Below are positions 1 to 64,000 of a stretch of 64,000 nt of DNA, one piece after another. The notes under the pieces were generated by a model. It had not been told where the DNA came from. It saw only the letters and a program-made list of their open reading frames with translations, and ran no database searches. The position numbers and the translations under genes were made by a program. Positions within the stretch are counted from its first letter, which is position 1. Every line of letters starts with the position of its first letter. Source of the DNA: Sacculina carcini (taxonomy: Eukaryota > Arthropoda > Thecostraca > Sacculinidae); assembly GCA_916048095.2 (NCBI GenBank), contig OU696586.1, positions 62,001 through 126,000 of the forward strand, written 5' to 3'.

Positions 1-10
1 TAGGTAACAC

Positions 11-43
11 TTATGTAACACTTAGGTAACATTTATGTAACAC
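11..43 (+). repeat. Recurring word C-G-C (first instance)
   Basis: Three units, C-G-C, in which the middle unit ends in T instead of C (AACAT) and both neighbours read TTATG. The word recurs throughout the window, usually after B-A-B-A and before a run of A units. A sister form has TCATGTAACAC as the third unit (for example near 1,750, 7,168, 9,163 and 10,306). Because G is nearly always met in this context, the three units have been copied as a block. Confidence 0.9.
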
Positions 44-142
44 TTAGGTAACACTTAGGTAACACTTAGGTAACACTTAGGTAACACTTAGGGCACACTT
101 AGGTAACACTTAGGGCACACTTAGGTAACACTTAGGTAACAC

Positions 143-197
143 TTGAGGCACACTTAGTTAACACTTAGGGCACACTTAGGTAACACTTAGGGCATAC
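143..197 (+). repeat. Recurring word E-D-B-A-F (first instance)
   Basis: Five units, 55 bp, in fixed order E-D-B-A-F. The word recurs dozens of times, for example starting near 474, 2,327, 9,515, 13,178, 18,984, 48,720 and 61,214, and is followed by a run of 3-15 A units. E is almost always followed by D; near 63,569 D is replaced by A. Variation in length lies in the A run after the word, not inside it. Confidence 0.9.
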
Positions 198-599
198 TTA
201 GGTAACACTTAGGTAACACTTAGGTAACACTTAGGTAACACTTAGGTAACACTTAGGTAACACTTAGGTAACACTTAGGTAACACTTAGGGCACACTTAG
301 TTAACACTTAGGGCACACTTAGGTAACACTTAGGTAACACTTAGGTAACACTTAGGGCACACTTAGGTAACACTTAGGGCACACTTAGGTAACACTTAGG
401 GCACACTTAGGTAACACTTAGGGCACACTTAGGTAACACTTAGGGCACACTTAGGTAACACTTAGGTAACACTTGAGGCACACTTAGTTAACACTTAGGG
501 CACACTTAGGTAACACTTAGGGCATACTTAGGTAACACTTAGGTAACACTTAGGTAACACTTAGGGTACACTTAGTTAACACTTAAGGCACACTTAGGT

Positions 600-1260
600 A
601 ACACTTAGTTAACACTTAGGGTACACTTAGGTAACACTTAGGTAACACTTAGGTAACACTTAGGTAAGACTTAGGTAACACTTAGGTAACACTTAGGTAA
701 CACTTAGGTAACACTTAGGTAACACTTAGGTAACACTTAGGTAACACTTATGTAACACTTAGGTAACACTTAGGGCACACTTAGGTAACACTTAGGGCAC
801 ACTTAGGTAACACTTATGTAACACTTAGGTAACATTTATGTAACACTTAGGTAACACTTAGGTAACACTTAGGTAACACTTAGGTAACACTTAGGGCACA
901 CTTAGGTAACACTTAGGGCACACTTAGGTAACACTTAGTTAACACTTAGGGTACACTTAGGTAACACTTAGGTAACACTTAGGTAACACTTAGGTAAGAC
1001 TTAGGTAACACTTAGGTAACACTTAGGTAACACTTAGGTAACACTTAGGTAACACTTAGGTAACACTTATGTAACACTTAGGTAACACTTAGGGCACACT
1101 TAGGTAACACTTAGGGCACACTTAGGTAACACTTATGTAACACTTAGGTAACATTTATGTAACACTTAGGTAACACTTAGGTAACACTTAGGTAACACTT
1201 AGGTAACACTTAGGTAACACTTAGGGCACACTTAGGTAACACTTAGGGCACACTTAGGTA
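600..1260 (+). repeat. 330-bp local tandem duplication (30 units x 2)
   Basis: A block containing D, H, a J unit, several A, C, B-A-B-A and C-G-C occurs twice in tandem. The GTT of D is at 608 and 938, and the GAC of J at 668 and 998, both exactly 330 bp (30 units) apart. The same pair is present at 6,086/6,416 and 35,977/36,307 (330 bp), and at 30,548/30,889 with one extra A unit (341 bp). It is therefore older than both the 5.4-kb and 29.9-kb duplications. Confidence 0.88.
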
Positions 1261-1935
1261 ACACTTAGGGCACACTTAGGTAACACTTAGGTAACACTTA
1301 GGTAACACTTAGGTAACACTTAGGTAACACTTAGGGCACACTTAGGGCACACTTAGGTAACACTTAGGTAACACTTAGGTAACACTTAGGTAACACTTGG
1401 GTAACACTTAGGTAACACTTAGGTAACACTTATGTAACACTTAGGTAACACTTAGGTAACACTTAGGTAACACTTAGGTAACACTTAGGTAACACTTAGG
1501 TAACACTTAGGTAACACTTAGGTAACACTTAGGTAACACTTAGGGCACACTTAGGGCACACTTAGGTAACACTTAGGGCACACTTAGGTAACACTTAGGG
1601 TACACTTAGGTAACACTTGGGTAACACTTAGGTAATACTTAGGACACACTTAGGTAACACTTAGGTAACACTTAGGTAACACTTAGGTAACACTTAGGGC
1701 ACACTTAGGTAACACTTAGGGCACACTTAGGTAACACTTATGTAACACTTAGGTAACATTCATGTAACACTTAGGTAACACTTAGGGCACACTTAGGTAA
1801 CACTTAGGTAACACTTAGGGCACACTTAGGTAACACTTAGGGCACACTTAGGTAACACTTAGGTAACACTTGAGGCACACTTAGTTAACACTTAGGGCAC
1901 ACTTAGGTAACACTTAGGGCATACTTAGGTAACAC

Positions 1936-1951
1936 TTAGGTTAGGTAACAC
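1936..1951 (+). repeat. Register shift: 5-bp TTAGG insertion
   Basis: Reads TTAGG followed by a full A unit, so two TTAGG stand in tandem and unit phase moves by 5. The alternative reading is a unit missing its last 6 bp. It sits shortly after an E-D-B-A-F word. Confidence 0.95.
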
Positions 1952-4900
1952 TTAGGTAACACTTAGGTAACACTTAGGTAACACTTAGGTAACACTTAGG
2001 GCACACTTAGGGCACACTTAGGTAACACTTAGGGCACACTTAGGTAACACTTAGGGTACACTTAGGTAACACTTGGGTAACACTTAGGTAACACTTAGGA
2101 CACACTTAGGTAACACTTAGGTAACACTTAGGTAACACTTAGGTAACACTTAGGGCACACTTAGGTAACACTTAGGGCACACTTAGGTAACACTTATGTA
2201 ACACTTAGGTAACATTTATGTAACACTTAGGTAACACTTAGGTAACACTTAGGTAACACTTAGGTAACACTTAGGGCACACTTAGGTAACACTTAGGGCA
2301 CACTTAGGTAACACTTAGGTAACACTTGAGGCACACTTAGTTAACACTTAGGGCACACTTAGGTAACACTTAGGGCATACTTAGGTAACACTTAGGTAAC
2401 ACTTAGGTAACACTTAGGTAACACTTAGGGCACACTTAGGTAACACTTAGGTAACACTTAGGGCACACTTAGGTAACACTTAGGGCACACTTAGGTAACA
2501 CTTATGTAACACTTAGGTAACATTTATGTAACACTTAGGTAACACTTAGGGCACACTTAGGTAACACTTAGGGCACACTTAGGTAACACTTAGGTAACAC
2601 TTAGGGCACACTTAGGTAACACTTGGGTAACACTTAGGTTACACTTAGGGCACACTTAGGTAACACTTAGGTAACACTTAGGTAACACTTAGGTAACACT
2701 TAGGTAACACTTAGGTAACACTTAGGTAACACTTAGGTAACACTTAGGTAACACTTAGGGTACACTTAGTTAACACTTAGGGCACACTTAGGTAACACTT
2801 AGGTAACACTTAGGGCACACTTAGGTAACACTTAGGGCACACTTAGGTAACACTTATGTAACACTTAGGTAACATTTATGTAACACTTAGGTAACACTTA
2901 GGTAACACTTAGGTAACACTTAGGTAACACTTAGGGCACACTTAGGTAACACTTAGGGCACACTTAGGTAACACTTAGGGCACACTTAGGTAACACTTAG
3001 GTAACACTTGAGGCACACTTAGTTAACACTTAGGGCACACTTAGGTAACACTTAGGGCACACTTAGGTAACACTTAGGTAACACTTGAGGCACACTTAGT
3101 TAACACTTAGGGCACACTTAGGTAACACTTAGGGCATACTTAGGTAACACTTAGGTAACACTTAGGTAACACTTAGGTAACACTTAGGTAACACTTAGGT
3201 AACACTTAGGTAACACTTAGGTAACACTTAGGGCACACTTAGTTAACACTTAGGGAACACTTAGGTAACACTTAGGTAACACTTAGGTAACACTTAGGGC
3301 ACACTTAGGTAACACTTAGGGCACACTTAGGTAACACTTATGTAACACTTAGGTAACATTTATGTAACACTTAGGTAACACTTAGGGCACACTTAGGTAA
3401 CACTTAGGGCACACTTAGGCAACACTTAGGGCACACTTAGGTAACACTTAGGGCACACTTAGGTAACACTTAGGGTACACTTAGGTAACACTTAGGTAAC
3501 ACTTAGGGCACACTTAGGTAACACTTAGGTAACACTTAGGGCACACTTAGGTAACACTTAGGGCACACTTAGGTAACACTTATGTAACACTTAGGTAACA
3601 TTTATGTAACACTTAGGTAACACTTAGGTAACACTTAGGTAACACTTAGGTAACACTTAGGGCACACTTAGGTAACACTTAGGGCACACTTAGGTAACAC
3701 TTAGGTAACACTTGAGGCACACTTAGTTAACACTTAGGGCACACTTAGGTAACACTTAGGGCATACTTAGGTAACACTTAGGTAACACTTAGGTAACACT
3801 TAGGTAACACTTAGGTAACACTTAGGTAACACTTAGGTAACACTTAGGTAACACTTAGGGCACACTTAGTTAACACTTAGGGCACACTTAGGTAACACTT
3901 AGGTAACACTTAGGTAACACTTAGGGCACACTTAGGTAACACTTAGGGCACACTTAGGTAACACTTATGTAACACTTAGGTAACATTTATGTAACACTTA
4001 GGTAACACTTAGGTAACACTTAGGTAACACTTAGGTAACACTTAGGGCACACTTAGGTAACACTTAGGGCACACTTAGGTAACACTTAGGTAACACTTGA
4101 GGCACACTTAGTTAACACTTAGGGCACACTTAGGTAACACTTAGGGCACACTTAGGTAACACTTAGGTAACACTTAGGTAACACTTAGGTAACACTTAGG
4201 TAACACTTAGGTAACACTTAGGTAACACTTAGGGCACACTTAGTTAACACTTAGGGCACACTTAGGTAACACTTAGGTAACACTTAGGGCACACTTAGGT
4301 AACACTTAGGGCACACTTAGGTAACACTTATGTAACACTTAGGGCACACTTAGGTAACACTTAGGGCATACTTAGGTAACACTTAGGGAACACTTAGGGC
4401 ACACTTATGTAACACTTATGTAACACTTAGGTAACATTTATGTAACACTTAGGTAACACTTAGGGCACACTTAGGTAACACTTAGGGCACACTTAGGTAA
4501 CACTTAGGGCACACTTAGGTAACACTTAGGGCACACTTAGGTAACACTTAGGGCACACTTAGGTAACACTTAGGTAACACTTGAGGCACAATTAGTTAAC
4601 ACTTAGGGCACACTTAGGTAACACTTAGGGCACACTTAGGTAACACTTAGGTAACACTTAGGTAACACTTAGGTAACACTTAGGTAACACTTAGGGCACA
4701 CTTAGGTAACACTTAGGTAACACTTGAGGCACACTTAGTTAACACTTAGGGCACACTTAGGTAACACTTAGGGCATACTTAGGTAACACTTAGGTAACAC
4801 TTAGGTAACACTTAGGTAACACTTAGGTAACACTTAGGTAACACTTAGGTAACACTTAGGTAACACTTAGGGTACACTTAGTTAACACTTAGGGCACACT

Positions 4901-5658
4901 TAGGTAACACTTAGGTAACACTTAGGTAACACTTAGGGCACACTTAGGTAACACTTAGGGCACACTTAGGTAACACTTATGTAACACTTAGGTAACATTT
5001 ATGTAACACTTAGGTAACACTTAGGTAACACTTAGGTAACACTTAGGTAACACTTAGGGCACACTTAGGTAACACTTAGGGCACACTTAGGTAACACTTA
5101 GGGCACACTTAGGTAACACTTAGGTAACACTTAGGTAACACTTAGGTAACACTTAGGTAACACTTAGGGCACACTTAGGGCACACTTAGGTAACACTTAG
5201 GTAACACTTAGGTAACACTTAGGTAACACTTGGGTAACACTTAGGTAACACTTAGGTAACACTTAGGTAACACTTATGTAACACTTAGGTAACACTTAGG
5301 TAACACTTAGGTAACACTTAGGTAACACTTAGGTAACACTTAGGTAACACTTAGGTAACACTTAGGTAACACTTAGGTAACACTTAGGGCACACTTAGGG
5401 CACACTTAGGTAACACTTAGGGCACACTTAGGTAACACTTAGGTAACACTTAGGGCACACTTAGGTAACACTTAGGGCACACTTAGGTAACACTTAGGTA
5501 ACACTTAGGTAACACTTAGGTAACACTTAGGGTACACTTAGTTAACACTTAGGGCACACTTAGGTAACACTTAGGTAACACTTAGGGCACACTTAGGTAA
5601 CACTTAGGGCACACTTAGGTAACACTTATGTAACACTTAGGTAACATTTATGTAACAC

Positions 5659-5670
5659 TAAAGGTAACAC
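5659..5670 (+). repeat. 12-bp unit TAAAGGTAACAC
   Basis: One base longer than the repeat, it follows a C-G-C word and shifts phase by +1. It replaces the A unit normally found there. Confidence 0.95.
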
Positions 5671-8408
5671 TTAGGGCACACTTAGGTAACACTTAGGGCA
5701 CACTTAGGTAACACTTAGGGCACACTTAGGTAACACTTAGGGCACACTTAGGTAACACTTAGGGCACACTTAGGTAACACTTAGGTAACACTTGAGGCAC
5801 ACTTAGTTAACACTTAGGGCACACTTAGGTAACACTTAGGGCATACTTAGGTAACACTTAGGTAACACTTAGGTAACACTTAGGTAACACTTAGGTAACA
5901 CTTAGGTAACACTTAGGTAACACTTAGGGTACACTTAGTTAACACTTAGGGCACACTTAGGTAACACTTAGGTAACACTTAGGGTACACTTAGTTAACAC
6001 TTAAGGCACACTTAGGTAACACTTAGTTAACACTTAGGGTACACTTAGGTAACACTTAGGTAACACTTAGGTAACACTTAGGTAAGACTTAGGTAACACT
6101 TAGGTAACACTTAGGTAACACTTAGGTAACACTTAGGTAACACTTAGGTAACACTTAGGTAACACTTATGTAACACTTAGGTAACACTTAGGGCACACTT
6201 AGGTAACACTTAGGGCACACTTAGGTAACACTTATGTAACACTTAGGTAACATTTATGTAACACTTAGGTAACACTTAGGTAACACTTAGGTAACACTTA
6301 GGTAACACTTAGGGCACACTTAGGTAACACTTAGGGCACACTTAGGTAACACTTAGTTAACACTTAGGGTACACTTAGGTAACACTTAGGTAACACTTAG
6401 GTAACACTTAGGTAAGACTTAGGTAACACTTAGGTAACACTTAGGTAACACTTAGGTAACACTTAGGTAACACTTAGGTAACACTTATGTAACACTTAGG
6501 TAACACTTAGGGCACACTTAGGTAACACTTAGGGCACACTTAGGTAACACTTATGTAACACTTAGGTAACATTTATGTAACACTTAGGTAACACTTAGGT
6601 AACACTTAGGTAACACTTAGGTAACACTTAGGGCACACTTAGGTAACACTTAGGGCACACTTAGGTAACACTTAGGGCACACTTAGGTAACACTTAGGTA
6701 ACACTTAGGTAACACTTAGGTAACACTTAGGTAACACTTAGGGCACACTTAGGGCACACTTAGGTAACACTTAGGTAACACTTAGGTAACACTTAGGTAA
6801 CACTTGGGTAACACTTAGGTAACACTTAGGTAACACTTATGTAACACTTAGGTAACACTTAGGTAACACTTAGGTAACACTTAGGTAACACTTAGGTAAC
6901 ACTTAGGTAACACTTAGGTAACACTTAGGTAACACTTAGGTAACACTTAGGGCACACTTAGGGCACACTTAGGTAACACTTAGGGCACACTTAGGTAACA
7001 CTTAGGGTACACTTAGGTAACACTTGGGTAACACTTAGGTAACACTTAGGACACACTTAGGTAACACTTAGGTAACACTTAGGTAACACTTAGGTAACAC
7101 TTAGGGCACACTTAGGTAACACTTAGGGCACACTTAGGTAACACTTATGTAACACTTAGGTAACATTCATGTAACACTTAGGTAACACTTAGGGCACACT
7201 TAGGTAACACTTAGGTAACACTTAGGGCACACTTAGGTAACACTTAGGGCACACTTAGGTAACACTTAGGTAACACTTGAGGCACACTTAGTTAACACTT
7301 AGGGCACACTTAGGTAACACTTAGGGCATACTTAGGTAACACTTAGGTTAGGTAACACTTAGGTAACACTTAGGTAACACTTAGGTAACACTTAGGTAAC
7401 ACTTAGGGCACACTTAGGGCACACTTAGGTAACACTTAGGGCACACTTAGGTAACACTTAGGGTACACTTAGGTAACACTTGGGTAACACTTAGGTAACA
7501 CTTAGGACACACTTAGGTAACACTTAGGTAACACTTAGGTAACACTTAGGTAACACTTAGGGCACACTTAGGTAACACTTAGGGCACACTTAGGTAACAC
7601 TTATGTAACACTTAGGTAACATTTATGTAACACTTAGGTAACACTTAGGTAACACTTAGGTAACACTTAGGTAACACTTAGGGCACACTTAGGTAACACT
7701 TAGGGCACACTTAGGTAACACTTAGGTAACACTTGAGGCACACTTAGTTAACACTTAGGGCACACTTAGGTAACACTTAGGGCATACTTAGGTAACACTT
7801 AGGTAACACTTAGGTAACACTTAGGTAACACTTAGGGCACACTTAGGTAACACTTAGGTAACACTTAGGGCACACTTAGGTAACACTTAGGGCACACTTA
7901 GGTAACACTTATGTAACACTTAGGTAACATTTATGTAACACTTAGGTAACACTTAGGGCACACTTAGGTAACACTTAGGGCACACTTAGGTAACACTTAG
8001 GTAACACTTAGGGCACACTTAGGTAACACTTGGGTAACACTTAGGTTACACTTAGGGCACACTTAGGTAACACTTAGGTAACACTTAGGTAACACTTAGG
8101 TAACACTTAGGTAACACTTAGGTAACACTTAGGTAACACTTAGGTAACACTTAGGTAACACTTAGGGTACACTTAGTTAACACTTAGGGCACACTTAGGT
8201 AACACTTAGGTAACACTTAGGGCACACTTAGGTAACACTTAGGGCACACTTAGGTAACACTTATGTAACACTTAGGTAACATTTATGTAACACTTAGGTA
8301 ACACTTAGGTAACACTTAGGTAACACTTAGGTAACACTTAGGGCACACTTAGGTAACACTTAGGGCACACTTAGGTAACACTTAGGGCACACTTAGGTAA
8401 CACTTAGG
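5670..8408 (+). repeat. 5.4-kb-offset duplication, right member (copy 1)
   Basis: This is the partner of about 350-3,000. It carries the same unit order E-D-B-A-F, A run, H-D, O, the J-containing 330-bp pair, K, the TTAGG insertion and P. It starts just right of the 12-bp unit at 5,659, which is absent from the left member. That unit therefore either arose after this duplication or lies just outside the copied segment. Confidence 0.84.
7343..7358 (+). repeat. Register shift: 5-bp TTAGG insertion
   Basis: This is the same event as at 1,936, carried by the 5.4-kb-offset duplication (5,407 bp away). Confidence 0.95.
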
Positions 8409-10845
8409 TAACACTTAGGTAACACTTAGGTAACACTTAGGTAACACTTAGGGCACACTTAGGGCACACTTAGGTAACACTTAGGTAACACTTAGGTAAC
8501 ACTTGGGTAACACTTAGGTAACACTTAGGTAACACTTATGTAACACTTAGGTAACACTTGGGTAACACTTAGGTAACACTTAGGTAACATTTATGTAACA
8601 CTTAGGTAACACTTAGGGCACACTTAGGTAACACTTAGGGCACACTTAGGTAACACTTAGGGCACACTTAGGTAACACTTAGGGCACACTTAGGTAACAC
8701 TTAGGGCACACTTAGGTAACACTTAGGTAACACTTGAGGCACACTTAGTTAACACTTAGGGCACACTTAGGTAACACTTAGGGCATACTTAGGTAATACT
8801 TAGGTAACACTTAGGTAACACTTAGGTAACACTTAGGTAACACTTAGGTAACACTTAGGTAACACTTAGGTAACACTTAGGTAACACTTAGGGTACACTT
8901 AGTTAACACTTAGGGCACACTTAGGTAACACTTAGTTAACACTTAGGGTACACTTAGGTAACACTTAGGTAACACTTAGGTAACACTTAGGTAACACTTA
9001 GGTAACACTTAGGTAAGACTTAGGTAACACTTAGGTAACACTTAGGGTACACTTAGGTAACACTTAGGGTACACTTAGGTAACACTTAGGTAACACTTAG
9101 GGCACACTTAGGTAACACTTAGGGCACACTTAGGTAACACTTATGTAACACTTAGGTAACATTCATGTAACACTTAGGTAACACTTAGGGCACACTTAGG
9201 TAACACTTAGGGCACACTTAGGTAACACTTAGGTAACACTTAGGGCACACTTAGGCAACACTTAGGGCACACTTAGGTAACACTTAGGGCACACTTAGGT
9301 AACACTTAGGGTACACTTAGGTAACACTTAGGTAACACTTAGGGCACACTTAGGTAACACTTAGGGCACACTTAGGTAACACTTATGTAACACTTAGGTA
9401 ACATTTATGTAACACTTAGGTAACACTTAGGTAACACTTAGGTAACACTTAGGTAACACTTAGGGCACACTTAGGTAACACTTAGGGCACACTTAGGTAA
9501 CACTTAGGTAACACTTGAGGCACACTTAGTTAACACTTAGGGCACACTTAGGTAACACTTAGGGCATACTTAGGTAACACTTAGGTAACACTTAGGTAAC
9601 ACTTAGGTAACACTTAGGTAACACTTAGGTAACACTTAGGTAACACTTAGGTAACACTTAGGTAACACTTAGGTAACACTTAGGTAACACTTAGGTAACA
9701 CTTAGGTAACACTTAGGTAACACTTAGGTAACACTTAGGGCACACTTAGGGCACACTTAGGTAACACTTAGGGCACACTTAGGTAACACTTAGGTAACAC
9801 TTAGGGCACACTTAGGTAACACTTAGGGCACACTTAGGTAACACTTAGGTAACACTTAGGTAACACTTAGGTAACACTTAGGGTACACTTAGTTAACACT
9901 TAGGGCACACTTAGGTAACACTTAGGTAACACTTAGGGCACACTTAGGTAACACTTAGGGCACACTTAGGTAACACTTATGTAACACATAGGTAACATTT
10001 ATGTAACACTTAGGTAACACTTAGGGCACACTTAGGTAACACTTAGGGCACACTTAGGTAACACTTAGGGCACACTTAGGTAACACTTAGGGCACACTTA
10101 GGTAACACTTAGGTAACACTTGAGGCACACTTAGTTAACACTTAGGGCACACTTAGGTAACACTTAGGGCATACTTAGGTAACACTTAGGTAACACTTAG
10201 GTAACACTTAGGTAACACTTAGGTAACACTTAGGGTACACTTAGGGCACACTTAGGTAACACTTAGGGCACACTTAGGTAACACTTATGTAACACTTAGG
10301 TAACATTCATGTAACACTTAGGTAACACTTAGGGCACACTTAGGTAACACTTAGGGCACACTTAGGTAACACTTAGGTAACACTTAGGGCACACTTAGGC
10401 AACACTTAGGGCACACTTAGGTAACACTTAGGGCACACTTAGGTAACACTTAGGGTACACTTAGGTAACACTTAGGTAACACTTAGGGCACACTTAGGTA
10501 ACACTTAGGGCACACTTAGGTAACACTTATGTAACACTTAGGTAACATTTATGTAACACTTAGGTAACACTTAGGTAACACTTAGGTAACACTTAGGTAA
10601 CACTTAGGTAACACTTAGGTAACACTTAGGTAACACTTAGGTAACACTTAGGTAACACTTAGGTAACACTTAGGTAAGACTTAGGTAACACTTAGGTAAC
10701 ACTTAGGGTACACTTAGGTAACACTTAGGGTACACTTAGGTAACACTTGGGTAACACTTAGGTAACACTTGGGACACACTTAGGTAACACTTAGGTAACA
10801 CTTAGGTAACACTTAGGTAACACTTAGGGCACACTTAGGTAACAC
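7770..10845 (+). repeat. 3.07-kb tandem duplication, first member
   Basis: This block is repeated immediately downstream at about 10,845-13,930. Anchors: F at 7,778 and 10,847 (3,069 bp), P at 8,041 and 11,110 (3,069 bp), the ATAGGTAACAC unit beside 9,987 and 13,045 (3,058 bp) and N at 10,769 and 13,871 (3,102 bp). All spacings are exact multiples of 11. It begins where the F unit follows E-D-B-A and ends where N-A-A-A-A-B-A runs directly into F, which looks like the tandem junction. Copy 2 carries the same pair (about 37.67-40.80 and 40.80-43.87 kb). Confidence 0.86.
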
Positions 10846-13800
10846 TTAGGGCATACTTAGGTAACACTTAGGTAACACTTAGGTAACACTTAGGTAACAC
10901 TTAGGGCACACTTAGGTAACACTTAGGTAACACTTAGGGCACACTTAGGTAACACTTAGGGCACACTTAGGTAACACTTATGTAACACTTAGGTAACATT
11001 TATGTAACACTTAGGTAACACTTAGGGCACACTTAGGTAACACTTAGGGCACACTTAGGTAACACTTAGGTAACACTTAGGGCACACTTAGGTAACACTT
11101 GGGTAACACTTAGGTTACACTTAGGGCACACTTAGGTAACACTTAGGTAACACTTAGGTAACACTTAGGTAACACTTAGGTAACACTTAGGTAACACTTA
11201 GGTAACACTTAGGTAACACTTAGGTAACACTTAGGGTACACTTAGTTAACACTTAGGGCACACTTAGGTAACACTTAGGTAACACTTAGGGCACACTTAG
11301 GTAACACTTAGGGCACACTTAGGTAACACTTATGTAACACTTAGGTAACATTTATGTAACACTTAGGTAACACTTAGGTAACACTTAGGTAACACTTAGG
11401 TAACACTTAGGGCACACTTAGGTAACACTTAGGGCACACTTAGGTAACACTTAGGGCACACTTAGGTAACACTTAGGTAACACTTAGGTAACACTTAGGT
11501 AACACTTAGGTAACACTTAGGGCACACTTAGGGCACACTTAGGTAACACTTAGGTAACACTTAGGTAACACTTGGGTAACACTTAGGTAACACTTAGGTA
11601 ACACTTATGTAACACTTAGGTAACACTTGGGTAACACTTAGGTAACACTTAGGTAACATTTATGTAACACTTAGGTAACACTTAGGGCACACTTAGGTAA
11701 CACTTAGGGCACACTTAGGTAACACTTAGGGCACACTTAGGTAACACTTAGGGCACACTTAGGTAACACTTAGGGCACACTTAGGTAACACTTAGGGCAC
11801 ACTTAGGTAACACTTAGGTAACACTTGAGGCACACTTAGTTAACACTTAGGGCACACTTAGGTAACACTTAGGGCATACTTAGGTAACACTTAGGTAACA
11901 CTTAGGTAACACTTAGGTAACACTTAGGTAACACTTAGGTAACACTTAGGTAACACTTAGGTAACACTTAGGTAACACTTAGGGTACACTTAGTTAACAC
12001 TTAGGGCACACTTAGGTAACACTTAGTTAACACTTAGGGTACACTTAGGTAACACTTAGGTAACACTTAGGTAACACTTAGGTAACACTTAGGTAACACT
12101 TAGGTAAGACTTAGGTAACACTTAGGTAACACTTAGGGTACACTTAGGTAACACTTAGGGCACACTTAGGTAACACTTAGGGCACACTTAGGTAACACTT
12201 ATGTAACACTTAGGTAACATTCATGTAACACTTAGGTAACACTTAGGGCACACTTAGGTAACACTTAGGGCACACTTAGGTAACACTTAGGTAACACTTA
12301 GGGCACACTTAGGCAACACTTAGGGCACACTTAGGTAACACTTAGGGCACACTTAGGTAACACTTAGGGTACACTTAGGTAACACTTAGGTAACACTTAG
12401 GGCACACTTAGGTAACACTTAGGGCACACTTAGGTAACACTTATGTAACACTTAGGTAACATTTATGTAACACTTAGGTAACACTTAGGTAACACTTAGG
12501 TAACACTTAGGTAACACTTAGGGCACACTTAGGTAACACTTAGGGCACACTTAGGTAACACTTAGGTAACACTTGAGGCACACTTAGTTAACACTTAGGG
12601 CACACTTAGGTAACACTTAGGGCATACTTAGGTAACACTTAGGTAACACTTAGGTAACACTTAGGTAACACTTAGGTAACACTTAGGTAACACTTAGGTA
12701 ACACTTAGGTAACACTTAGGTAACACTTAGGTAACACTTAGGTAACACTTAGGTAACACTTAGGTAACACTTAGGTAACACTTAGGTAACACTTAGGGCA
12801 CACTTAGGGCACACTTAGGTAACACTTAGGGCACACTTAGGTAACACTTAGGTAACACTTAGGGCACACTTAGGTAACACTTAGGGCACACTTAGGTAAC
12901 ACTTAGGTAACACTTAGGTAACACTTAGGTAACACTTAGGGTACACTTAGTTAACACTTAGGGCACACTTAGGTAACACTTAGGTAACACTTAGGGCACA
13001 CTTAGGTAACACTTAGGGCACACTTAGGTAACACTTATGTAACACATAGGTAACATTTATGTAACACTTAGGTAACACTTAGGGCACACTTAGGTAACAC
13101 TTAGGGCACACTTAGGTAACACTTAGGGCACACTTAGGTAACACTTAGGGCACACTTAGGTAACACTTAGGTAACACTTGAGGCACACTTAGTTAACACT
13201 TAGGGCACACTTAGGTAACACTTAGGGCATACTTAGGTAACACTTAGGTAACACTTAGGTAACACTTAGGTAACACTTAGGTAACACTTAGGTAACACTT
13301 AGGTAACACTTAGGTAACACTTAGGGTACACTTAGGGCACACTTAGGTAACACTTAGGGCACACTTAGGTAACACTTATGTAACACTTAGGTAACATTCA
13401 TGTAACACTTAGGTAACACTTAGGGCACACTTAGGTAACACTTAGGGCACACTTAGGTAACACTTAGGTAACACTTAGGGCACACTTAGGCAACACTTAG
13501 GGCACACTTAGGTAACACTTAGGGCACACTTAGGTAACACTTAGGGTACACTTAGGTAACACTTAGGTAACACTTAGGGCACACTTAGGTAACACTTAGG
13601 GCACACTTAGGTAACACTTATGTAACACTTAGGTAACATTTATGTAACACTTAGGTAACACTTAGGTAACACTTAGGGTACACTTAGGTAACACTTAGGT
13701 AACACTTAGGTAACACTTAGGTAACACTTAGGTAACACTTAGGTAACACTTAGGTAACACTTAGGTAACACTTAGGTAAGACTTAGGTAACACTTAGGTA

Positions 13801-13930
13801 ACACTTAGGGTACACTTAGGTAACACTTAGGGTACACTTAGGTAACACTTGGGTAACACTTAGGTAACACTTGGGACACACTTAGGTAACACTTAGGTAA
13901 CACTTAGGTAACACTTAGGTAACACTTAGG
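10845..13930 (+). repeat. 3.07-kb tandem duplication, second member
   Basis: This is the direct tandem partner of 7,770-10,845. At its left edge an F unit (10,847) is preceded by N-A4-B-A instead of the usual E-D-B-A, which is how I place the junction. After N at 13,871 it continues B-A-B-A-C-G and leaves the shared block. Confidence 0.86.
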
Positions 13931-14079
13931 GCACACTTAGGTAACACTTAGGGCACACTTAGGTAACACTTATGTAACACTTAGGTAACATTCATGTAAC
14001 ACTTAGGTAACACTTAGGGCACACTTAGGTAACACTTAGGGCACACTTAGGTAACACTTAGGTAACACTTAGGGCACAC

Positions 14080-14089
14080 TAGGTAACAC
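14080..14089 (+). repeat. 10-bp unit TAGGTAACAC after B
   Basis: A single T is missing at the B/A boundary (GGCACACTAGG), shifting phase by -1. It lies 209 bp (19 units) after an N unit at 13,871, the first of a series of such cassettes. Confidence 0.95.
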
Positions 14090-14164
14090 TTAGGGTACAC
14101 TTAGGTAACACTTAGGGCACACTTAGGTAACACTTAGGGCACACTTAGGTAACACTTAGGGCAC

Positions 14165-14965
14165 ACTTAGGTAACACTTAGGGCACACTTAGGTAACACT
14201 TAGGTAACACTTGGGTAACACTTAGGTAACACTTAGGTAACACTTATGTAACACTTAGGTAACACTTGGGTAACACTTAGGTAACACTTAGGTAACATTT
14301 ATGTAACACTTAGGTAACACTTAGGGCACACTTAGGTAACACTTAGGGCACACTTAGGTAACACTTAGGGCACACTTAGGTAACACTTAGGGCACACTTA
14401 GGTAACACTTAGGGCACACTTAGGTAACACTTAGGGCACACTTAGGTAACACTTAGGTAACACTTGAGGCACACTTAGTTAACACTTAGGGCACACTTAG
14501 GTAACACTTAGGGCATACTTAGGTAACACTTAGGTAACACTTAGGTAACACTTAGGTAACACTTAGGTAACACTTAGGTAACACTTAGGTAACACTTAGG
14601 TAACACTTAGGTAACACTTAGGGTACACTTAGTTAACACTCAGGGCACACTTAGGTAACACTTAGTTAACACTTAGGGTACACTTAGGTAACACTTAGGT
14701 AACACTTAGGTAACACTTAGGTAACACTTAGGTAACACTTAGGTAAGACTTAGGTAACACTTAGGTAACACTTAGGGTACACTTAGGTAACACTTAGGGT
14801 ACACTTAGGTAACACTTAGGTAACACTTAGGGCACACTTAGGTAACACTTAGGGCACACTTAGGTAACACTTATGTAACACTTAGGTAACATTCATGTAA
14901 CACTTAGGTAACACTTAGGGCACACTTAGGTAACACTTAGGGCACACTTAGGTAACACTTAGGTA
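14165..14965 (+). repeat. 0.8-kb block, repeated 1.65 kb downstream
   Basis: The run B-A-B-A-A-I, then C, a second I, G-C, E-D-B-A-F, H-D, and the J/H units recurs at about 15,815-16,605. I is at 14,211 and 15,861 (1,650 bp, 150 units); the GAC of J is at 14,747 and 16,386 (1,639 bp). One base change is private to this copy: the T to C at 14,641 in the unit after D. Shorter relatives with two I units flanking C occur near 8.5 and 11.6 kb. Confidence 0.75.
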
Positions 14966-17158: not shown

Positions 17159-17168
17159 TAGGTAACAC
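17159..17168 (+). repeat. 10-bp unit TAGGTAACAC after B
   Basis: Same missing T as at 14,080. No N unit is present 209 bp upstream, so the cassette's left part differs here. Confidence 0.94.
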
Positions 17169-48050: not shown

Positions 48051-49874
48051 AGGTAACACTTAGGGCACACTTAGGTAACACTTAGGTAACACTTGAGGCA
48101 CACTTAGTTAACACTTAGGGCACACTTAGGTAACACTTAGGGCATACTTAGGTAACACTTAGGTAACACTTAGGTAACACTTAGGTAACACTTAGGTAAC
48201 ACTTAGGTAACACTTAGGTAACACTTAGGGCACACTTAGTTAACACTTAGGGAACACTTAGGTAACACTTAGGTAACACTTAGGTAACACTTAGGTAACA
48301 CTTAGGGCACACTTAGGTAACACTTAGGGCACACTTAGGTAACACTTATGTAACACTTAGGTAACATTTATGTAACACTTAGGTAACACTTAGGGCACAC
48401 TTAGGTAACACTTAGGGCACACTTAGGCAACACTTAGGGCACACTTAGGTAACACTTAGGGCACACTTAGGTAACACTTAGGGTACACTTAGGTAACACT
48501 TAGGTAACACTTAGGGCACACTTAGGTAACACTTAGGTAACACTTAGGGCACACTTAGGTAACACTTAGGGCACACTTAGGTAACACTTATGTAACACTT
48601 AGGTAACATTTATGTAACACTTAGGTAACACTTAGGTAACACTTAGGTAACACTTAGGTAACACTTAGGGCACACTTAGGTAACACTTAGGGCACACTTA
48701 GGTAACACTTAGGTAACACTTGAGGCACACTTAGTTAACACTTAGGGCACACTTAGGTAACACTTAGGGCATACTTAGGTAACACTTAGGTAACACTTAG
48801 GTAACACTTAGGTAACACTTAGGTAACACTTAGGTAACACTTAGGTAACACTTAGGGCACACTTAGTTAACACTTAGGGCACACTTAGGTAACACTTAGG
48901 TAACACTTAGGTAACACTTAGGGCACACTTAGGTAACACTTAGGGCACACTTAGGGCACACTTAGGTAACACTTAGGGCACACTTAGGTAACACTTAGGT
49001 AACACTTGGGTAACACTTAGGTAACACTTAGGTAACACTTATGTAACACTTAGGTAACACTTAGGTAACACTTAGGTAACACTTAGGTAACACTTAGGTA
49101 ACACTTAGGGCACACTTAGTTAACACTTAGGGAACACTTAGGTAACACTTAGGTAACACTTAGGTAACACTTAGGGCACACTTAGGTAACACTTAGGGCA
49201 CACTTAGGTAACACTTATGTAACACTTAGGTAACATTTATGTAACACTTAGGTAACACTTAGGGCACACTTAGGTAACACTTAGGGCACACTTAGGCAAC
49301 ACTTAGGGCACACTTAGGTAACACTTAGGGCACACTTAGGTAACACTTAGGGTACACTTAGGTAACACTTAGGTAACACTTAGGGCACACTTAGGTAACA
49401 CTTAGGGCACACTTAGGTAACACTTATGTAACACTTAGGTAACATTTATGTAACACTTAGGTAACACTTAGGTAACACTTAGGGTACACTTAGGTAACAC
49501 TTAGGTAACACTTAGGTAACACTTAGGTAACACTTAGGTAACACTTAGGTAACACTTAGGTAACACTTAGGTAAGACTTAGGTAACACTTAGGTAACACT
49601 TAGGGTACACTTAGGTAACACTTAGGGTACACTTAGGTAACACTTGGGTAACACTTAGGTAACACTTGGGACACACTTAGGTAACACTTAGGTAACACTT
49701 AGGTAACACTTAGGTAACACTTAGGGCACACTTAGGTAACACTTAGGGCACACTTAGGTAACACTTATGTAACACTTAGGTAACATTCATGTAACACTTA
49801 GGTAACACTTAGGGCACACTTAGGTAACACTTAGGGCACACTTAGGTAACACTTAGGTAACACTTAGGGCACAC

Positions 49875-49884
49875 TAGGTAACAC
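49875..49884 (+). repeat. 10-bp unit TAGGTAACAC after B
   Basis: This is the copy-2 equivalent of 20,139, 209 bp after the N at 49,666. Confidence 0.95.
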
Positions 49885-52419
49885 TTAGGGTACACTTAGG
49901 TAACACTTAGGTAACACTTAGGTAACACTTAGGGCACACTTAGGTAACACTTAGGGCACACTTAGGTAACACTTATGTAACACTTAGGTAACATTTATGT
50001 AACACTTAGGTAACACTTAGGTAACACTTAGGTAACACTTAGGTAACACTTAGGGCACACTTAGGTAACACTTAGGGCACACTTAGGTAACACTTAGGTA
50101 ACACTTGAGGCACACTTAGTTAACACTTAGGGCACACTTAGGTAACACTTAGGGCATACTTAGGTAACACTTAGGTAACACTTAGGTAACACTTAGGTAA
50201 CACTTAGGTAACACTTAGGTAACACTTAGGGTACACTTAGTTAACACTTAGGGCACACTTAGGTAACACTTAGGTAACACTTAGGTAACACTTAGGTAAC
50301 ACTTAGGTAACACTTAGGGTACACTTAGGGCACACTTAGGTAACACTTAGGGCACACTTAGGTAACACTTATGTAACACTTAGGTAACATTCATGTAACA
50401 CTTAGGTAACACTTAGGGCACACTTAGGTAACACTTAGGGCACACTTAGGTAACACTTAGGTAACACTTAGGGCACACTTAGGGCACACTTAGGCAACAC
50501 TTAGGGCACACTTAGGTAACACTTAGGGCACACTTAGGTAACACTTAGGGTACACTTAGGTAACACTTAGGTAACACTTAGGGCACACTTAGGTAACACT
50601 TAGGGCACACTTAGTTAACACTTAGGTAACACTTAGGTAACACTTAGGTAACACTTAGGTAACACTTAGGGCACACTTAGTTAACACTTAGGGAACACTT
50701 AGGTAACACTTAGGTAACACTTAGGTAACACTTAGGGCACACTTAGGTAACACTTAGGGCACACTTAGGTAACACTTATGTAACACTTAGGTAACATTTA
50801 TGTAACACTTAGGTAACACTTAGGGCACACTTAGGTAACACTTAGGGCACACTTAGGCAACACTTAGGGCACACTTAGGTAACACTTAGGGCACACTTAG
50901 GTAACACTTAGGGTACACTTAGGTAACACTTAGGTAACACTTAGGGCACACTTAGGTAACACTTAGGGCACACTTAGGTAACACTTATGTAACACTTAGG
51001 TAACATTTATGTAACACTTAGGTAACACTTAGGTAACACTTAGGGTACACTTAGGTAACACTTAGGTAACACTTAGGTAACACTTGAGGCACACTTAGTT
51101 AACACTTAGGGCACACTTAGGTAACACTTAGGGCATACTTAGGTAACACTTAGGTAACACTTAGGTAACACTTAGGTAACACTTAGGTAACACTTAGGTA
51201 ACACTTAGGTAACACTTAGGTAACACTTAGGGTACACTTAGTTAACACTTAGGGCACACTTAGGTAACACTTAGGTAACACTTAGGTAACACTTAGGTAA
51301 CACTTAGGTAACACTTAGGGTACACTTAGGGCACACTTAGGTAACACTTAGGGCACACTTAGGTAACATTCATGTAACACTTAGGTAACACTTAGGGCAC
51401 ACTTAGGTAACACTTAGGGCACACTTAGGTAACACTTAGGTAACACTTAGGGCACACTTAGGGCACACTTAGGCAACACTTAGGGCACACTTAGGTAACA
51501 CTTAGGGCACACTTAGGTAACACTTAGGGTACACTTAGGTAACACTTAGGTAACACTTAGGGCACACTTAGGTAACACTTAGGGCACACTTAGGTAACAC
51601 TTATGTAACACTTAGGTAACATTTATGTAACACTTAGGTAACACTTAGGTAACACTTAGGTAACACTTAGGTAACACTTAGGGCACACTTAGGTAACACT
51701 TAGGGCACACTTAGGTAACACTTAGGGCACACTTAGGTAACACTTAGGTAACATTTAGGTAACACTTAGGTAACACTTAGGTAACACTTAGGGCACACTT
51801 AGGGCACACTTAGGTAACACTTAGGTAACACTTAGGTAACACTTAGGTAACACTTGGGTAACACTTAGGTAACACTTAGGTAACACTTATGTAACACTTA
51901 GGTAACACTTAGGTAACACTTAGGTAACACTTAGGTAACACTTAGGTAACACTTAGGTAACACTTAGGTAACACTTAGGTAACACTTAGGTAACACTTAG
52001 GGCACACTTAGGGCACACTTAGGTAACACTTATGTAACACTTAGGTAACACTTAGGTAACACTTAGGGCACACTTAGGTAACACTTAGGGCACACTTAGG
52101 TAACACTTAGGTAACACTTGAGGCACACTTAGTTAACACTTAGGGCACACTTAGGTAACACTTAGGGCATACTTAGGTAACACTTAGGTAACACTTAGGT
52201 AACACTTAGGTAACACTTAGGTAACACTTAGGTAACACTTAGGTAACACTTAGGTAACACTTAGGGCACACTTAGTTAACACTTAGGGAACACTTAGGTA
52301 ACACTTAGGTAACACTTAGGTAACACTTAGGGCACACTTAGGTAACACTTAGGGCACACTTAGGTAACACTTATGTAACACTTAGGTAACATTTATGTAA
52401 CACTTAGGTAACACTTAGG

Positions 52420-54530
52420 GCACACTTAGGTAACACTTAGGGCACACTTAGGTAACACTTAGGGCACACTTAGGTAACACTTAGGTAACACTTAGGGCAC
52501 ACTTAGGTAACACTTAGGTAACACTTGAGGCACACTTAGTTAACACTTAGGGCACACTTAGGTAACACTTAGGGCATACTTAGGTAACACTTAGGTAACA
52601 CTTAGGTAACACTTAGGTAACACTTAGGTAACACTTAGGTAACACTTAGGTAACACTTAGGTAACACTTAGGGTACACTTAGTTAACACTTAGGGCACAC
52701 TTAGGTAACACTTAGTTAACACTTAGGGTACACTTAGGTAACACTTAGGTAACACTTAGGTAACACTTAGGTAACACTTAGGTAACACTTAGGTAAGACT
52801 TAGGTAACACTTAGGTAACACTTAGGGTACACTTAGGTAACACTTAGGGTACACTTAGGTAACACTTAGGTAACACTTAGGGCACACTTAGGTAACACTT
52901 AGGGCACACTTAGGTAACACTTATGTAACACTTAGGTAACATTCATGTAACACTTAGGTAACACTTAGGGCACACTTAGGTAACACTTAGGGCACACTTA
53001 GGTAACACTTAGGTAACACTTAGGGCACACTTAGGCAACACTTAGGGCACACTTAGGTAACACTTAGGGCACACTTAGGTAACACTTAGGTAACACTTAG
53101 GGCACACTTAGGTAACACTTAGGTAACACTTAGGTAACACTTAGGGCACACTTAGGTAACACTTAGGGCACACTTAGGTAACACTTAGGTAACACTTGAG
53201 GCACACTTAGTTAACACTTAGGGCACACTTAGGTAACACTTAGGGCATACTTAGGTAACACTTAGGGCACACTTAGGTAACATTTATGTAACACTTAGGT
53301 AACACTTAGGTAACACTTAGGTAACACTTAGGTAACACTTAGGGCACACTTAGGTAACACTTAGGGCACACTTAGGTAACACTTAGGTAACACTTAGGTA
53401 ACACTTAGGTAACACTTAGGGCACACTTAGGTAACACTTAGGGCACACTTAGGTAACACTTATGTAACACTTAGGTAACATTCATGTAACACTTAGGTAA
53501 CACTTAGGGCACACTTAGGTAACACTTAGGGCACACTTAGGTAACACTTAGGTAACACTTAGGGCACACTAGGTAACACTTAGGGTACACTTAGGTAACA
53601 CTTAGGTAACACTTAGGGCACACTTAGGTAACACTTAGGGCACACTTAGGTAACACTTATGTAACACTTAGGTAACATTTATGTAACACTTAGGTAACAC
53701 TTAGGTAACACTTAGGTAACACTTAGGTAACACTTAGGGCACACTTAGGTAACACTTAGGGCACACTTAGGTAACACTTAGGTAACACTTGAGGCACACT
53801 TAGTTAACACTTAGGGCACACTTAGGTAACACTTAGGGCATACTTAGGTAACACTTAGGTAACACTTAGGTAACACTTAGGTAACACTTAGGTAACACTT
53901 AGGTAACACTTAGGGTACACTTAGTTAACACTTAGGGCACACTTAGGTAACACTTAGGTAACACTTAGGTAACACTTAGGGCACACTTAGGTAACACTTA
54001 GGGCACACTTAGGTAACACTTATGTAACACTTAGGTAACATTTATGTAACACTTAGGTAACACTTAGGTAATACTTAGGTAACACTTAGGTAACACTTAG
54101 GGTACACTTAGGTAACACTTAGGGCACACTTAGGTAACACTTAGGGCACACTTAGGTAACACTTAGGTAACACTTAGGTAACACTTAGGTAACACTTAGG
54201 TAACACTTAGGGCACACTTAGGGCACACTTAGGTAACACTTAGGTAACACTTAGGTAACACTTGGGTAACACTTAGGTAACACTTAGGTAACACTTATGT
54301 AACACTTAGGTAACACTTAGGTAACACTTAGGTAACACTTATGTAACACTTAGGTAACACTTAGGTAACACTTAGGGCACACTTAGGTAACACTTAGGGC
54401 ACACTTAGGTAACACTTAGGTAACACTTAGGTAACACTTAGGTAACACTTAGGGCACACTTAGGGCACACTTAGGTAACACTTATGTAACACTTAGGTAA
54501 CACTTAGGTAACACTTAGGGCACACTTAGG
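52420..54530 (+). repeat. 6,477-bp-offset duplication, right member
   Basis: This is the partner of 45,950-48,050, and also a third relative of about 16.0-18.0 kb in copy 1. It is followed by an N cassette (54,735) and a block matching 21.1-22.2 and 27.9-28.9 kb, so this stretch is a mosaic of segments found elsewhere in the window. Confidence 0.82.
53570..53579 (+). repeat. 10-bp unit TAGGTAACAC after B
   Basis: Duplicate of 47,093, exactly 6,477 bp away, and likewise without an N unit upstream. Confidence 0.94.
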
Positions 54531-54943
54531 TAACACTTAGGGTACACTTAGGTAACACTTAGGTAACACTTAGGTAACACTTAGGTAACACTTAGGTAAC
54601 ACTTAGGTAACACTTAGGTAACACTTAGGTAACACTTAGGTAAGACTTAGGTAACACTTAGGTAACACTTAGGGTACACTTAGGTAACACTTAGGGTACA
54701 CTTAGGTAACACTTGGGTAACACTTAGGTAACACTTGGGACACACTTAGGTAACACTTAGGTAACACTTAGGTAACACTTAGGTAACACTTAGGGCACAC
54801 TTAGGTAACACTTAGGGCACACTTAGGTAACACTTATGTAACACTTAGGTAACATTCATGTAACACTTAGGTAACACTTAGGGCACACTTAGGTAACACT
54901 TAGGGCACACTTAGGTAACACTTAGGTAACACTTAGGGCACAC

Positions 54944-54953
54944 TAGGTAACAC
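54944..54953 (+). repeat. 10-bp unit TAGGTAACAC after B
   Basis: Same missing T, 209 bp after the N at 54,735. The following block matches 21.3-22.2 and 28.1-28.9 kb. Confidence 0.95.
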
Positions 54954-59300: not shown

Positions 59301-62300
59301 AGGTAACACTTAGGTAACACTTAGGGCACACTTAGTTAACACTTAGGGCACACTTAGGTAACACTTAGGTAACACTTAGGTAACACTTAGGGCACACTTA
59401 GGTAACACTTAGGGCACACTTAGGTAACACTTATGTAACACTTAGGTAACATTTATGTAACACTTAGGTAACACTTAGGTAACACTTAGGTAACACTTAG
59501 GTAACACTTAGGGCACACTTAGGTAACACTTAGGGCACACTTAGGTAACACTTAGGTAACACTTGAGGCACACTTAGTTAACACTTAGGGCACACTTAGG
59601 TAACACTTAGGGCATACTTAGGTAACACTTAGGTAACACTTAGGTAACACTTAGGTAACACTTAGGTAACACTTAGCTAACACTTAGGTAACACTTAGGG
59701 CACACTTAGTTAACACTTAGGGCACACTTAGGTAACACTTAGGTAACACTTAGGGCACACTTAGGTAACACTTAGGGCACACTTAGGTAACACTTATGTA
59801 ACACTTAGGGCACACTTAGGTAACACTTAGGGCATACTTAGGTAACACTTAGGTAACACTTAGGGCACACTTATGTAACACTTATGTAACACTTAGGTAA
59901 CATTTATGTAACACTTAGGTAACACTTAGGGCACACTTAGGTAACACTTAGGGCACACTTAGGTAACACTTAGGGCACACTTAGGTAACACTTAGGGCAC
60001 ACTTAGGTAACACTTAGGGCACACTTAGGTAACACTTAGGTAACACTTGAGGCACAATTAGTTAACACTTAGGGCACACTTAGGTAACACTTAGGGCATA
60101 CTTAGGTAACACTTAGGTAACACTTAGGTAACACTTAGGTAACACTTAGGTAACACTTAGGGCACACTTAGGTAACACTTAGGTAACACTTGAGGCACAC
60201 TTAGTTAACACTTAGGGCACACTTAGGTAACACTTAGGGCATACTTAGGTAACACTTAGGTAACACTTAGGTAACACTTAGGTAACACTTAGGTAACACT
60301 TAGGTAACACTTAGGTAACACTTAGGTAACACTTAGGGTACACTTAGTTAACACTTAGGGCACACTTAGGTAACACTTAGGTAACACTTAGGGTACACTT
60401 AGTTAACACTTAGGGCACACTTAGGTAACACTTAGTTAACACTTAGGGTACACTTAGGTAACACTTAGGTAACACTTAGGTAACACTTAGGTAACACTTA
60501 GGTAACACTTAGGTAAGACTTAGGTAACACTTAGGTAACACTTAGGGTACACTTAGGTAACACTTAGGGTACACTTAGGTAACACTTAGGTAACACTTAG
60601 GTAACACTTAGGACACACTTAGGTAACACTTAGGTAACACTTAGGTAACACTTAGGGCACACTTAGGTAACACTTAGGGCACACTTAGGTAACACTTATG
60701 TAACACTTAGGTAACATTTATGTAACACTTAGGTAACACTTAGGTAACACTTAGGTAACACTTAGGTAACACTTAGGGCACACTTAGGTAACACTTAGGG
60801 CACACTTAGGTAACACTTAGGGCACACTTAGGTAACACTTAGGTAACACTTAGGTAACACTTAGGTAACACTTAGGTAACACTTAGGGCACACTTAGGGC
60901 ACACTTAGGTAACACTTAGGTAACACTTAGGTAACACTTAGGTAACACTTGGGTAACACTTAGGTAACACTTAGGTAACACTTATGTAACACTTAGGTAA
61001 CACTTAGGTAACACTTAGGTAACACTTAGGTAACACTTAGGTAACACTTAGGTAACACTTAGGTAACACTTAGGTAACACTTAGGTAACACTTAGGGCAC
61101 ACTTAGGGCACACTTAGGTAACACTTATGTAACACTTAGGTAACACTTAGGTAACACTTAGGGCACACTTAGGTAACACTTAGGGCACACTTAGGTAACA
61201 CTTAGGTAACACTTGAGGCACACTTAGTTAACACTTAGGGCACACTTAGGTAACACTTAGGGCATACTTAGGTAACACTTAGGTAACACTTAGGTAACAC
61301 TTAGGTAACACTTAGGTAACACTTAGGTAACACTTAGGTAACACTTAGGTAACACTTAGGGCACACTTAGTTAACACTTAGGGAACACTTAGGTAACACT
61401 TAGGTAACACTTAGGTAACACTTAGGGCACACTTAGGTAACACTTAGGGCACACTTAGGTAACACTTATGTAACACTTAGGTAACATTTATGTAACACTT
61501 AGGTAACACTTAGGGCACACTTAGGTAACACTTAGGGCACACTTAGGCAACACTTAGGGCACACTTAGTTAACACTTAGGGCATACTTAGGTAACACTTA
61601 GGGCATACTTAGGTAACACTTAGGTAACACTTAGGTAACACTTAGGTAACACTTAGGTAACACTTAGGTAACACTTAGGGCACACTTAGTTAACACTTAG
61701 GGCACACTTAGGTAACACTTAGGTAACACTTAGGTAACACTTAGGGCACACTTAGGTAACACTTAGGGCACACTTAGGTAACACTTATGTAACACTTAGG
61801 TAACATTTATGTAACACTTAGGTAACACTTAGGTAACACTTAGGTAACACTTAGGTAACACTTAGGGCACACTTAGGTAACACTTAGGGCACACTTAGGT
61901 AACACTTAGGTAACACTTGAGGCACACTTAGTTAACACTTAGGGCACACTTAGGTAACACTTAGGGCATACTTAGGTAACACTTAGGTAACACTTAGGTA
62001 ACACTTAGGTAACACTTAGGTAACACTTAGGTAACACTTAGGTAACACTTAGGGCACACTTAGTTAACACTTAGGGCACACTTAGGTAACACTTAGGTAA
62101 CACTTAGGGCACACTTAGGTAACACTTAGGGCACACTTAGGTAACACTTATGTAACACTTAGGGCACACTTAGGTAACACTTAGGGCACACTTAGGTAAC
62201 ACTTAGGTAACACTTAGGGCACACTTATGTAACACTTATGTAACACTTAGGTAACATTTATGTAACACTTAGGTAACACTTAGGGCACACTTAGGTAACA

Positions 62301-64000
62301 CTTAGGGCACACTTAGGTAACACTTAGGGCACACTTAGGTAACACTTAGGGCACACTTAGGTAACACTTAGGGCACACTTAGGTAACACTTAGGTAACAC
62401 TTGAGGCACACTTAGTTAACACTTAGGGCACACTTAGGTAACACTTAGGTAACACTTGAGGCACACTTAGTTAACACTTAGGGCACACTTAGGTAACACT
62501 TAGGGCATACTTAGGTAACACTTAGGTAACACTTAGGTAACACTTAGGTAACACTTAGGTAACACTTAGGTAACACTTAGGGTACACTTAGTTAACACTT
62601 AGGGCACACTTAGGTAACACTTAGGTAACACTTAGGTAACACTTAGGGCACACTTAGGTAACACTTAGGGCACACTTAGGTAACACTTATGTAACACTTA
62701 GGTAACATTTATGTAACACTTAGGTAACACTTAGGTAACACTTAGGTAACACTTAGGTAACACTTAGGGCACACTTAGGTAACACTTAGGGCACACTTAG
62801 GTAACACTTAGGTAACACTTGAGGCACACTTAGTTAACACTTAGGGCACACTTAGGTAACACTTAGGGCATACTTAGGTAACACTTAGGTAACACTTAGG
62901 TAACACTTAGGTAACACTTAGGTAACACTTAGGTAACACTTAGGGTACACTTAGTTAACACTTAGGGCACACTTAGGTAACACTTAGGTAACACTTAGGT
63001 AACACTTAGGGCACACTTAGGTAACACTTAGGGCACACTTAGGTAACACTTATGTAACACTTAGGTAACATTTATGTAACACTTAGGTAACACTTAGGTA
63101 ACACTTAGGTAACACTTAGGTAACACTTAGGGCACACTTAGGTAACACTTAGGGCACACTTAGGTAACACTTAGGGCACACTTAGGTAACACTTAGGTAA
63201 CACTTAGGTAACACTTAGGTAACACTTAGGTAACACTTAGGGCACACTTAGGGCACACTTAGGTAACACTTAGGTAACACTTAGGTAACACTTAGGTAAC
63301 ACTTGGGTAACACTTAGGTAACACTTAGGTAACACTTATGTAACACTTAGGTAACACTTAGGTAACACTTAGGTAACACTTAGGTAACACTTAGGTAACA
63401 CTTAGGTAACACTTAGGTAACACTTAGGTAACACTTAGGTAACACTTAGGGCACACTTAGGGCACACTTAGGTAACACATATGTAACACTTAGGTAACAC
63501 TTAGGTAACACTTAGGGCACACTTAGGTAACACTTAGGGCACACTTAGGTAACACTTAGGTAACACTTGAGGCACACTTAGGTAACACTTAGGGCACACT
63601 TAGGTAACACTTAGGGCACACTTAGGTAACACTTAGGTAACACTTAGGTAACACTTAGGTAACACTTAGGTAACACTTAGGTAACACTTAGGTAACACTT
63701 AGGTAACACTTAGGGCACACTTAGGTAACACTTAGGGAACACTTAGGTAACACTTAGGTAACACTTAGGTAACACTTAGGGCACACTTAGGTAACACTTA
63801 GGGCACACTTAGGTAACACTTATGTAACACTTAGGTAACATTTATGTAACACTTAGGTAACACTTAGGGCACACTTAGGTAACACTTAGGGCACACTTAG
63901 GCAACACTTAGGGCACACTTAGGTAACACTTAGGGCACACTTAGGTAACACTTAGGGTACACTTAGGTAACACTTAGGTAACACTTAGGGCACACTTAGG
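56360..64000 (+). repeat. Local tandem series with 2.35-2.65 kb period
   Basis: Four successive members are marked by L units at 56,527, 58,903, 61,543 and 63,897, with spacings of 2,376, 2,640 and 2,354 bp (216, 240 and 214 units). The B-C-C junction at 57,220, 59,871 and 62,225 gives 2,651 and 2,354 bp. M units near 56,362, 58,738, 61,378 and 63,732 agree. The change ACACATATG occurs at 58,483 and 63,477 but not in the member between. The last member has lost two D units to A (near 63,580 and 63,723). The series continues beyond the window. Related B-C-C blocks lie at 4,405 and 34,285. Confidence 0.83.

Follow-up and report, generated by a model that had tools for sequence, protein, structure and literature searches.

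The almost unbroken 11-bp register of the 64,000-bp stretch analysed here (the window) can be explained by concerted evolution of the ordinary kind in a subtelomeric satellite that has been copied repeatedly and recently, a reading to which we assign a probability of about 0.8 and which needs no phase-keeping machinery. The window is one tandem array throughout (positions 1 to 64000, forward strand) of an 11-bp unit with the consensus TTAGGTAACAC. It corresponds to bases 62,001-126,000 of C21, toward the 5' end of this chromosome-sized contig of 8.09 Mb, in a genome of 264 Mb in 43 contigs. The array continues directly upstream (stretch L010) and directly downstream (L011) of the window, and the satellite is present from the first bases of C21 and recurs out to at least 344.6 kb, the intervening stretches having been sampled rather than read throughout. 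Exact dimers of the unit number 133,334 genome-wide, which implies at least 1.47 Mb of satellite. The unit contains the telomere repeat TTAGG, the insect and arthropod type (PMC9498494), and six further bases. A literature search with six rotations of the forward 11-mer, judged by title and the start of the abstract, found no paper on it as a satellite, and a search by phrase for 11-bp satellites or tandem repeats found nothing related.

Unit lengths and the four indel events

Wrap-around dynamic programming against TTAGGTAACAC divides the window into 5,820 complete units, a tally that omits the two partial units at its edges: 5,801 of 11 bp, 13 of 10 bp, four of 5 bp and two of 12 bp. The resulting 19 indel groups stand at the same positions as those of a preliminary description of this DNA, which had counted only 19 off-length units of four kinds in 64 kb and had proposed a dynamic-programming split with a table of unit lengths as the check. 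Of six scoring schemes, five agree on the unit lengths, and the one that makes gaps very cheap departs from them with 5,735 units of 11 bp. An alignment-free count based on 3,358 exact consensus anchors, separated by 77 bp at the widest, gave exactly 19 phase changes, with phase 0 at the first anchor and 9 at the last, and thereby confirms the coordinates and arithmetic of the earlier phase record.

That record had been regarded as vulnerable to many compensating indel pairs hidden between anchors, which are not borne out. Indel groups of zero net length are absent in three of the six schemes, number 90 in two and reach 322 in the scheme with the cheapest gaps; 90 is also the number of TTGAGGCACAC and TTGAGGCACAA units taken together (87 and 3). 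The 11-bp units of the window are of 28 kinds, every one of which differs by a single substitution from some other kind present, so that 27 steps link all 28. Because single substitutions thus account for every kind, compensating pairs are not required and were rejected. The off-length units are as follows.

1936..1940, forward strand: 5-bp unit TTAGG, one extra telomere-type repeat; event family 1
7343..7347, forward strand: 5-bp unit TTAGG; copy, event family 1
31816..31820, forward strand: 5-bp unit TTAGG; copy, event family 1
37234..37238, forward strand: 5-bp unit TTAGG; copy, event family 1
5659..5670, forward strand: 12-bp unit TAAAGGTAACAC; event family 2
35539..35550, forward strand: 12-bp unit TAAAGGTAACAC; copy, event family 2, 29,880 bp from the first
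14080..28086, forward strand: seven 10-bp units TAGGTAACAC, starting at 14080, 17159, 20139, 21326, 25230, 26879 and 28077; event family 3
44037..54953, forward strand: five 10-bp units TAGGTAACAC, starting at 44037, 47093, 49875, 53570 and 54944; event family 3
44553..44562, forward strand: single 10-bp unit TTAGGTACAC; event 4

Their surroundings over 22 units show the 19 to be copies of four events, as the preliminary description had suggested with its estimate of perhaps four independent indels. The four 5-bp units agree with one another in the 22 units to either side, and so do the two 12-bp units. Among the twelve TAGGTAACAC units the left flank hardly varies, and the right flank is one of a few. 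The single TTAGGTACAC unit has lost one G, since TTAGGGTACAC stands in the partner copy at 14618. Candidate origins of the 5-bp unit, and of similar TTAGG islands on C43, are telomerase, telomere recombination, a simple deletion of 6 bp and a duplication of 5 bp. The T loss in the T-less unit, which as an exact pattern occurs in 48 places of the genome (37 on C21, three on C12 and eight on C30), may have arisen more than once.

About 42% of window units deviate from the consensus by substitution, against 0.33% that are off-length. This disparity could suggest that phase is actively maintained, either through selection against off-length units, imposed by a protein or a nucleosome array dependent on 11-bp spacing, or through recombination that repairs them away, but such maintenance appears highly improbable. 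Off-length units have not failed to spread: as exact patterns, the doubled TTAGG is found in 24 places, all on C21, where the T-less unit has its 37, and the array on C30 carries a 170-bp non-satellite block in at least six copies. A helical turn takes about 10.5 bp, 11 bp is not a whole turn, and rotational phase would drift anyway at 11 bp per unit.

Indels compared with substitutions

The proportion of 19 among about 5,800 units is the wrong comparison, because copied units are not independent and it is kinds of mutational event that have to be compared. The window and 15 loci together supply 13,200 units. In these, 2,320 contexts occur at least twice, and the 43 variable ones comprise 41 substitutions and two 1-bp indels; one of the two indels, on C12, is possibly an error of the consensus, and without it the count would be 1/42. 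Counted by unit kinds, the window has at least 27 substitution steps against four kinds of indel, a type-based ratio that undercounts recurrent substitutions. Published indel-to-substitution ratios are given as 4.61:51.65 in D. melanogaster and 6.69:14.50 in C. elegans (PMC4978911), and as 1:11.5 in the bumblebee, a value described there as low relative to earlier estimates of 1:3.11-5.8 (PMC5854123). With an indel share of 8%, two or fewer indels among 43 have a probability of 0.32, and four or fewer among 31 a probability of 0.90. The depletion beyond mutation bias that active phase keeping would entail would show more clearly at higher shares, the probability of two or fewer among 43 being 0.034 at 15% and 0.005 at 20%; the observed 2/43 would be low, in favour of phase keeping, if the true share were 15-20%.

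Grouping of variant units by their surroundings gave five to six indel clusters among 82-146 (4-6%). Indel and substitution clusters did not differ in size (Mann-Whitney p 0.35-0.62 in four settings), in a test that omits the commonest variant, TTAGGGCACAC. Its clusters are over-split among indels and substitutions alike: the twelve TAGGTAACAC units, which go back to one event, fall into two or three. This similarity of size is a further argument against active phase keeping. It also bears on a passive bias, in which off-length units would spread less well, without selection, by lowering local homology in unequal exchange. Such a bias is suggested by the share of off-length units among those outside the three commonest kinds, 1.7% (19/1,100) against 4-6% of context clusters, but the difference in cluster size that it calls for is not significant, with five to six indel clusters, and we regard it as improbable.

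Neutral copying simulations were run until 19% of units were derived, matching the window. With an indel share of 8%, an off-length share as low as observed was reached in 6%, 2% and 4.7% of runs (150 runs each), in 8.0% (400 runs) and in 11.6% (250 runs), which places the window in the lower tail and is a point in favour of phase keeping. At a 15% share, no run of 150 was as low, and at shares of 2-6%, 17-67% of runs were. For comparison within the same genome we took a different satellite, of 68 bp, found at the 5' ends of C22 (L019) and C35 (L022). In two samples of about 3 kb, indels make up 23/224 and 21/250 of its variant occurrences (8-10%) and 12/95 and 4/65 of its distinct variants, in a unit with longer base runs than the 11-mer. 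The longest base run is two in TTAGGTAACAC and three in the common variants of the unit. A mild, roughly two-fold shortage of indels is therefore possible, and the short base runs of the 11-mer may explain any such shortage.

Block copying and the regularity of other arrays

The preliminary description had offered two explanations of the register, a phase that is kept or a very recent expansion of the array. Our results favour the second. Exact duplicates of at least 1.1 kb (at least 100 units) cover 50.6% of window units, with a dominant offset of 29.9 kb, and those of at least 550 bp (at least 50 units) cover 81.3%; multi-unit blocks copied at high identity thus give the satellite higher-order repeats. 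The long duplication aligns cleanly over these parts.

132..20622, forward strand: long duplication, first copy, cleanly aligning part; pairs with 29902-50369
29902..50369, forward strand: long duplication, second copy, cleanly aligning part; pairs with 132-20622

The clean part of the 29.9-kb pair, about 20.5 kb, holds 16 substitution-type unit differences and one small indel, which are 17 of the 56 unit differences of the long pair and come from its first 20.6 kb; the other 39, two of them length differences, were dropped, as beyond 20.6 kb the alignment seems to match non-corresponding copies. The clean part has 18 nucleotide differences. At about 3e-9 mutations per base and generation, close to a quoted Drosophila rate of 2.8e-9, the duplication would be, as a rough inference, some 150,000 generations old, barring later conversion. 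The alternative of a kept phase fares less well, since independent substitutions are also few (41:2 by contexts, at least 27:4 by kinds) and indel units have been amplified like others.

The earlier statement that the remaining length change comes in whole 11-bp units holds in the alignment of the two halves of about 30 kb: it has 56 gap runs, of which 54 have a length divisible by 11. Two are 10 mod 11, the value to be expected if the gap holds a 10-bp unit. Among length changes between identical 12-unit flanks, 13 of 23 families are multiples of 11, and the other ten each hold an off-length unit already counted in the sampled arrays, so this comparison adds no information.

The preliminary description had also called for a look at other arrays of the genome, and these show that regularity is common in the satellite family and not uniform. 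The arrays on C4 (0/844 off-length units), C20 (0/634), C15 (1/634) and the minus arm of C21 (0/726) are as regular as the window, and the plus arm of C21 has 29/8,546, the 19 of the window included. Those on C12 and C43 are less so. On C43, there are four off-length entries among 618 units, from two islands of six TTAGG (L024:776 and L032:1211) that lie in the array at the position of the unit's own TTAGG. Elsewhere on this contig (L032:3843-6000), non-array sequence interrupts or ends the array, and two open reading frames in it resemble, by eye, a non-LTR retroelement. C30 has 61 off-length entries among 817 units, and was considered as an array out of register. This was rejected, as 58 of the 61 come from a single copied non-satellite block and three are small indels. 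The block is AT-rich and about 170 bp long and lies inside the array, with four copies in L030 (C30:25001-31000) and two in L021 (C30:1-3000).

C12 bears on whether the regularity is partly technical, real small indels having been erased when the assembly consensus was built. In 6 kb sampled near its 3' end, five of 544 units are off-length, of five different kinds, each a 1-bp gain or loss next to an identical base, as would be seen with poor consensus support, and these units may be consensus errors. HiFi reads are reported to carry short homopolymer indel errors in telomeric repeats (PMC11406999), which also points toward such erasure. The three indel families in 18 places with shared contexts, together with the one single unit, speak for copied indels having been kept, an argument that covers copied and not private indels. 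On this balance a partly technical origin of the regularity is unlikely.

Chromosome ends and the turnover of the array

The satellite is found at or near the sampled ends of C4, C12, C15, C20, C21 and C30, and one piece of the C2 interior has ten exact units. It is absent from the sampled ends of C3, C18, C22, C25 and C35 and from the 3' end of C2, and none was seen in the sampled stretches of C1, C5, C10 and C40, which begin with N. On C4 the 11-bp array gives way, without a break in phase, to TTAGG-type units that extend over 8,016 bases, the junction falling at the TTAGG of the 11-mer (L026:1812-9827). This tract has 1,603 five-base units with seven single-base variants and no length change. 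A ~580-bp repeat beside the array on C4 (L025:7900-8480) recurs, among the matches listed, at the ends of C3, C18 and C2 (L013, L017 and L028) with 81-85% identity. The satellite therefore lies next to the telomere position at several chromosome ends, the telomere tract itself being present on C4 and in none of the stretches sampled at other ends. Since the tract lies outside the array, the 11-mer is not the terminal repeat at C4, the one end where this can be read.

The strand with TTAGG points to the contig end on C4, C12, C15, C20 and C30, and the opposite way in the outer part of C21, where the array reverses head to head between 251,360 and 260,001. Both C21 arms have the doubled TTAGG, which as an exact pattern is on no other contig, and a common set of variants. 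These shared features make it probable that one arm is a copy of the other. The head-to-head turn may be a terminal inverted duplication or an assembly misjoin.

Telomere-type motifs are also carried by the monomer of PaB6 in Prospero, a pericentromeric satellite of 249 bp (PMC4273535), whereas the unit described here has 11 bp and lies at contig ends. The 10-bp telomere motif TTAGGGATGG of Cimex (PMC11354137) is likewise a longer relative of TTAGG at chromosome ends; here, the C4 end keeps a TTAGG tract outside the 11-bp array. It is conceivable, though on balance doubtful, that the satellite arose from telomere repeats and trades sequence with the telomere itself, in which case the TTAGG insertions of the window family and of the six-TTAGG islands on C43 would record telomerase or telomere recombination, and the C21 arms a terminal inverted duplication. 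Off-length units would then be relics of the repair of chromosome ends.

Short units in long tandem arrays next to the telomere, local homogenisation and higher-order repeats are traits that the array has in common with known telomere-adjacent repeats; what sets it apart is the 11-bp unit, a telomere repeat plus six other bases, and the spread of array sequence over hundreds of kb of C21. On the reading we prefer, concerted evolution by recent copying, a subtelomeric array of this type would grow and turn over by homologous copying in blocks that range from tens of units to hundreds or more. Candidate routes include unequal exchange, slippage over repeats, break-induced copying and copying from a sister. 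Homologous copying aligns units with units, so length changes would be multiples of 11 bp, and whole-unit change would need no protein that counts helical turns. Point-like indels alone would break the phase, arising at about the normal rate relative to substitutions, and only about four would be present, each in one to twelve copies, because most of the window would descend from few recent template blocks. The copying in blocks, the shared contexts, the 41:2 ratio and the like copying of indel and substitution events are features of the array as read; the exact recombination route and an absence of selection on phase are what we infer.

Independent events, rather than units, are thus what should be counted when the regular register of a young satellite is assessed; with unit counts alone, copy number gives ordinary mutation the look of constraint. 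The four indel events provide clean markers for tracing how a subtelomeric array copies itself.
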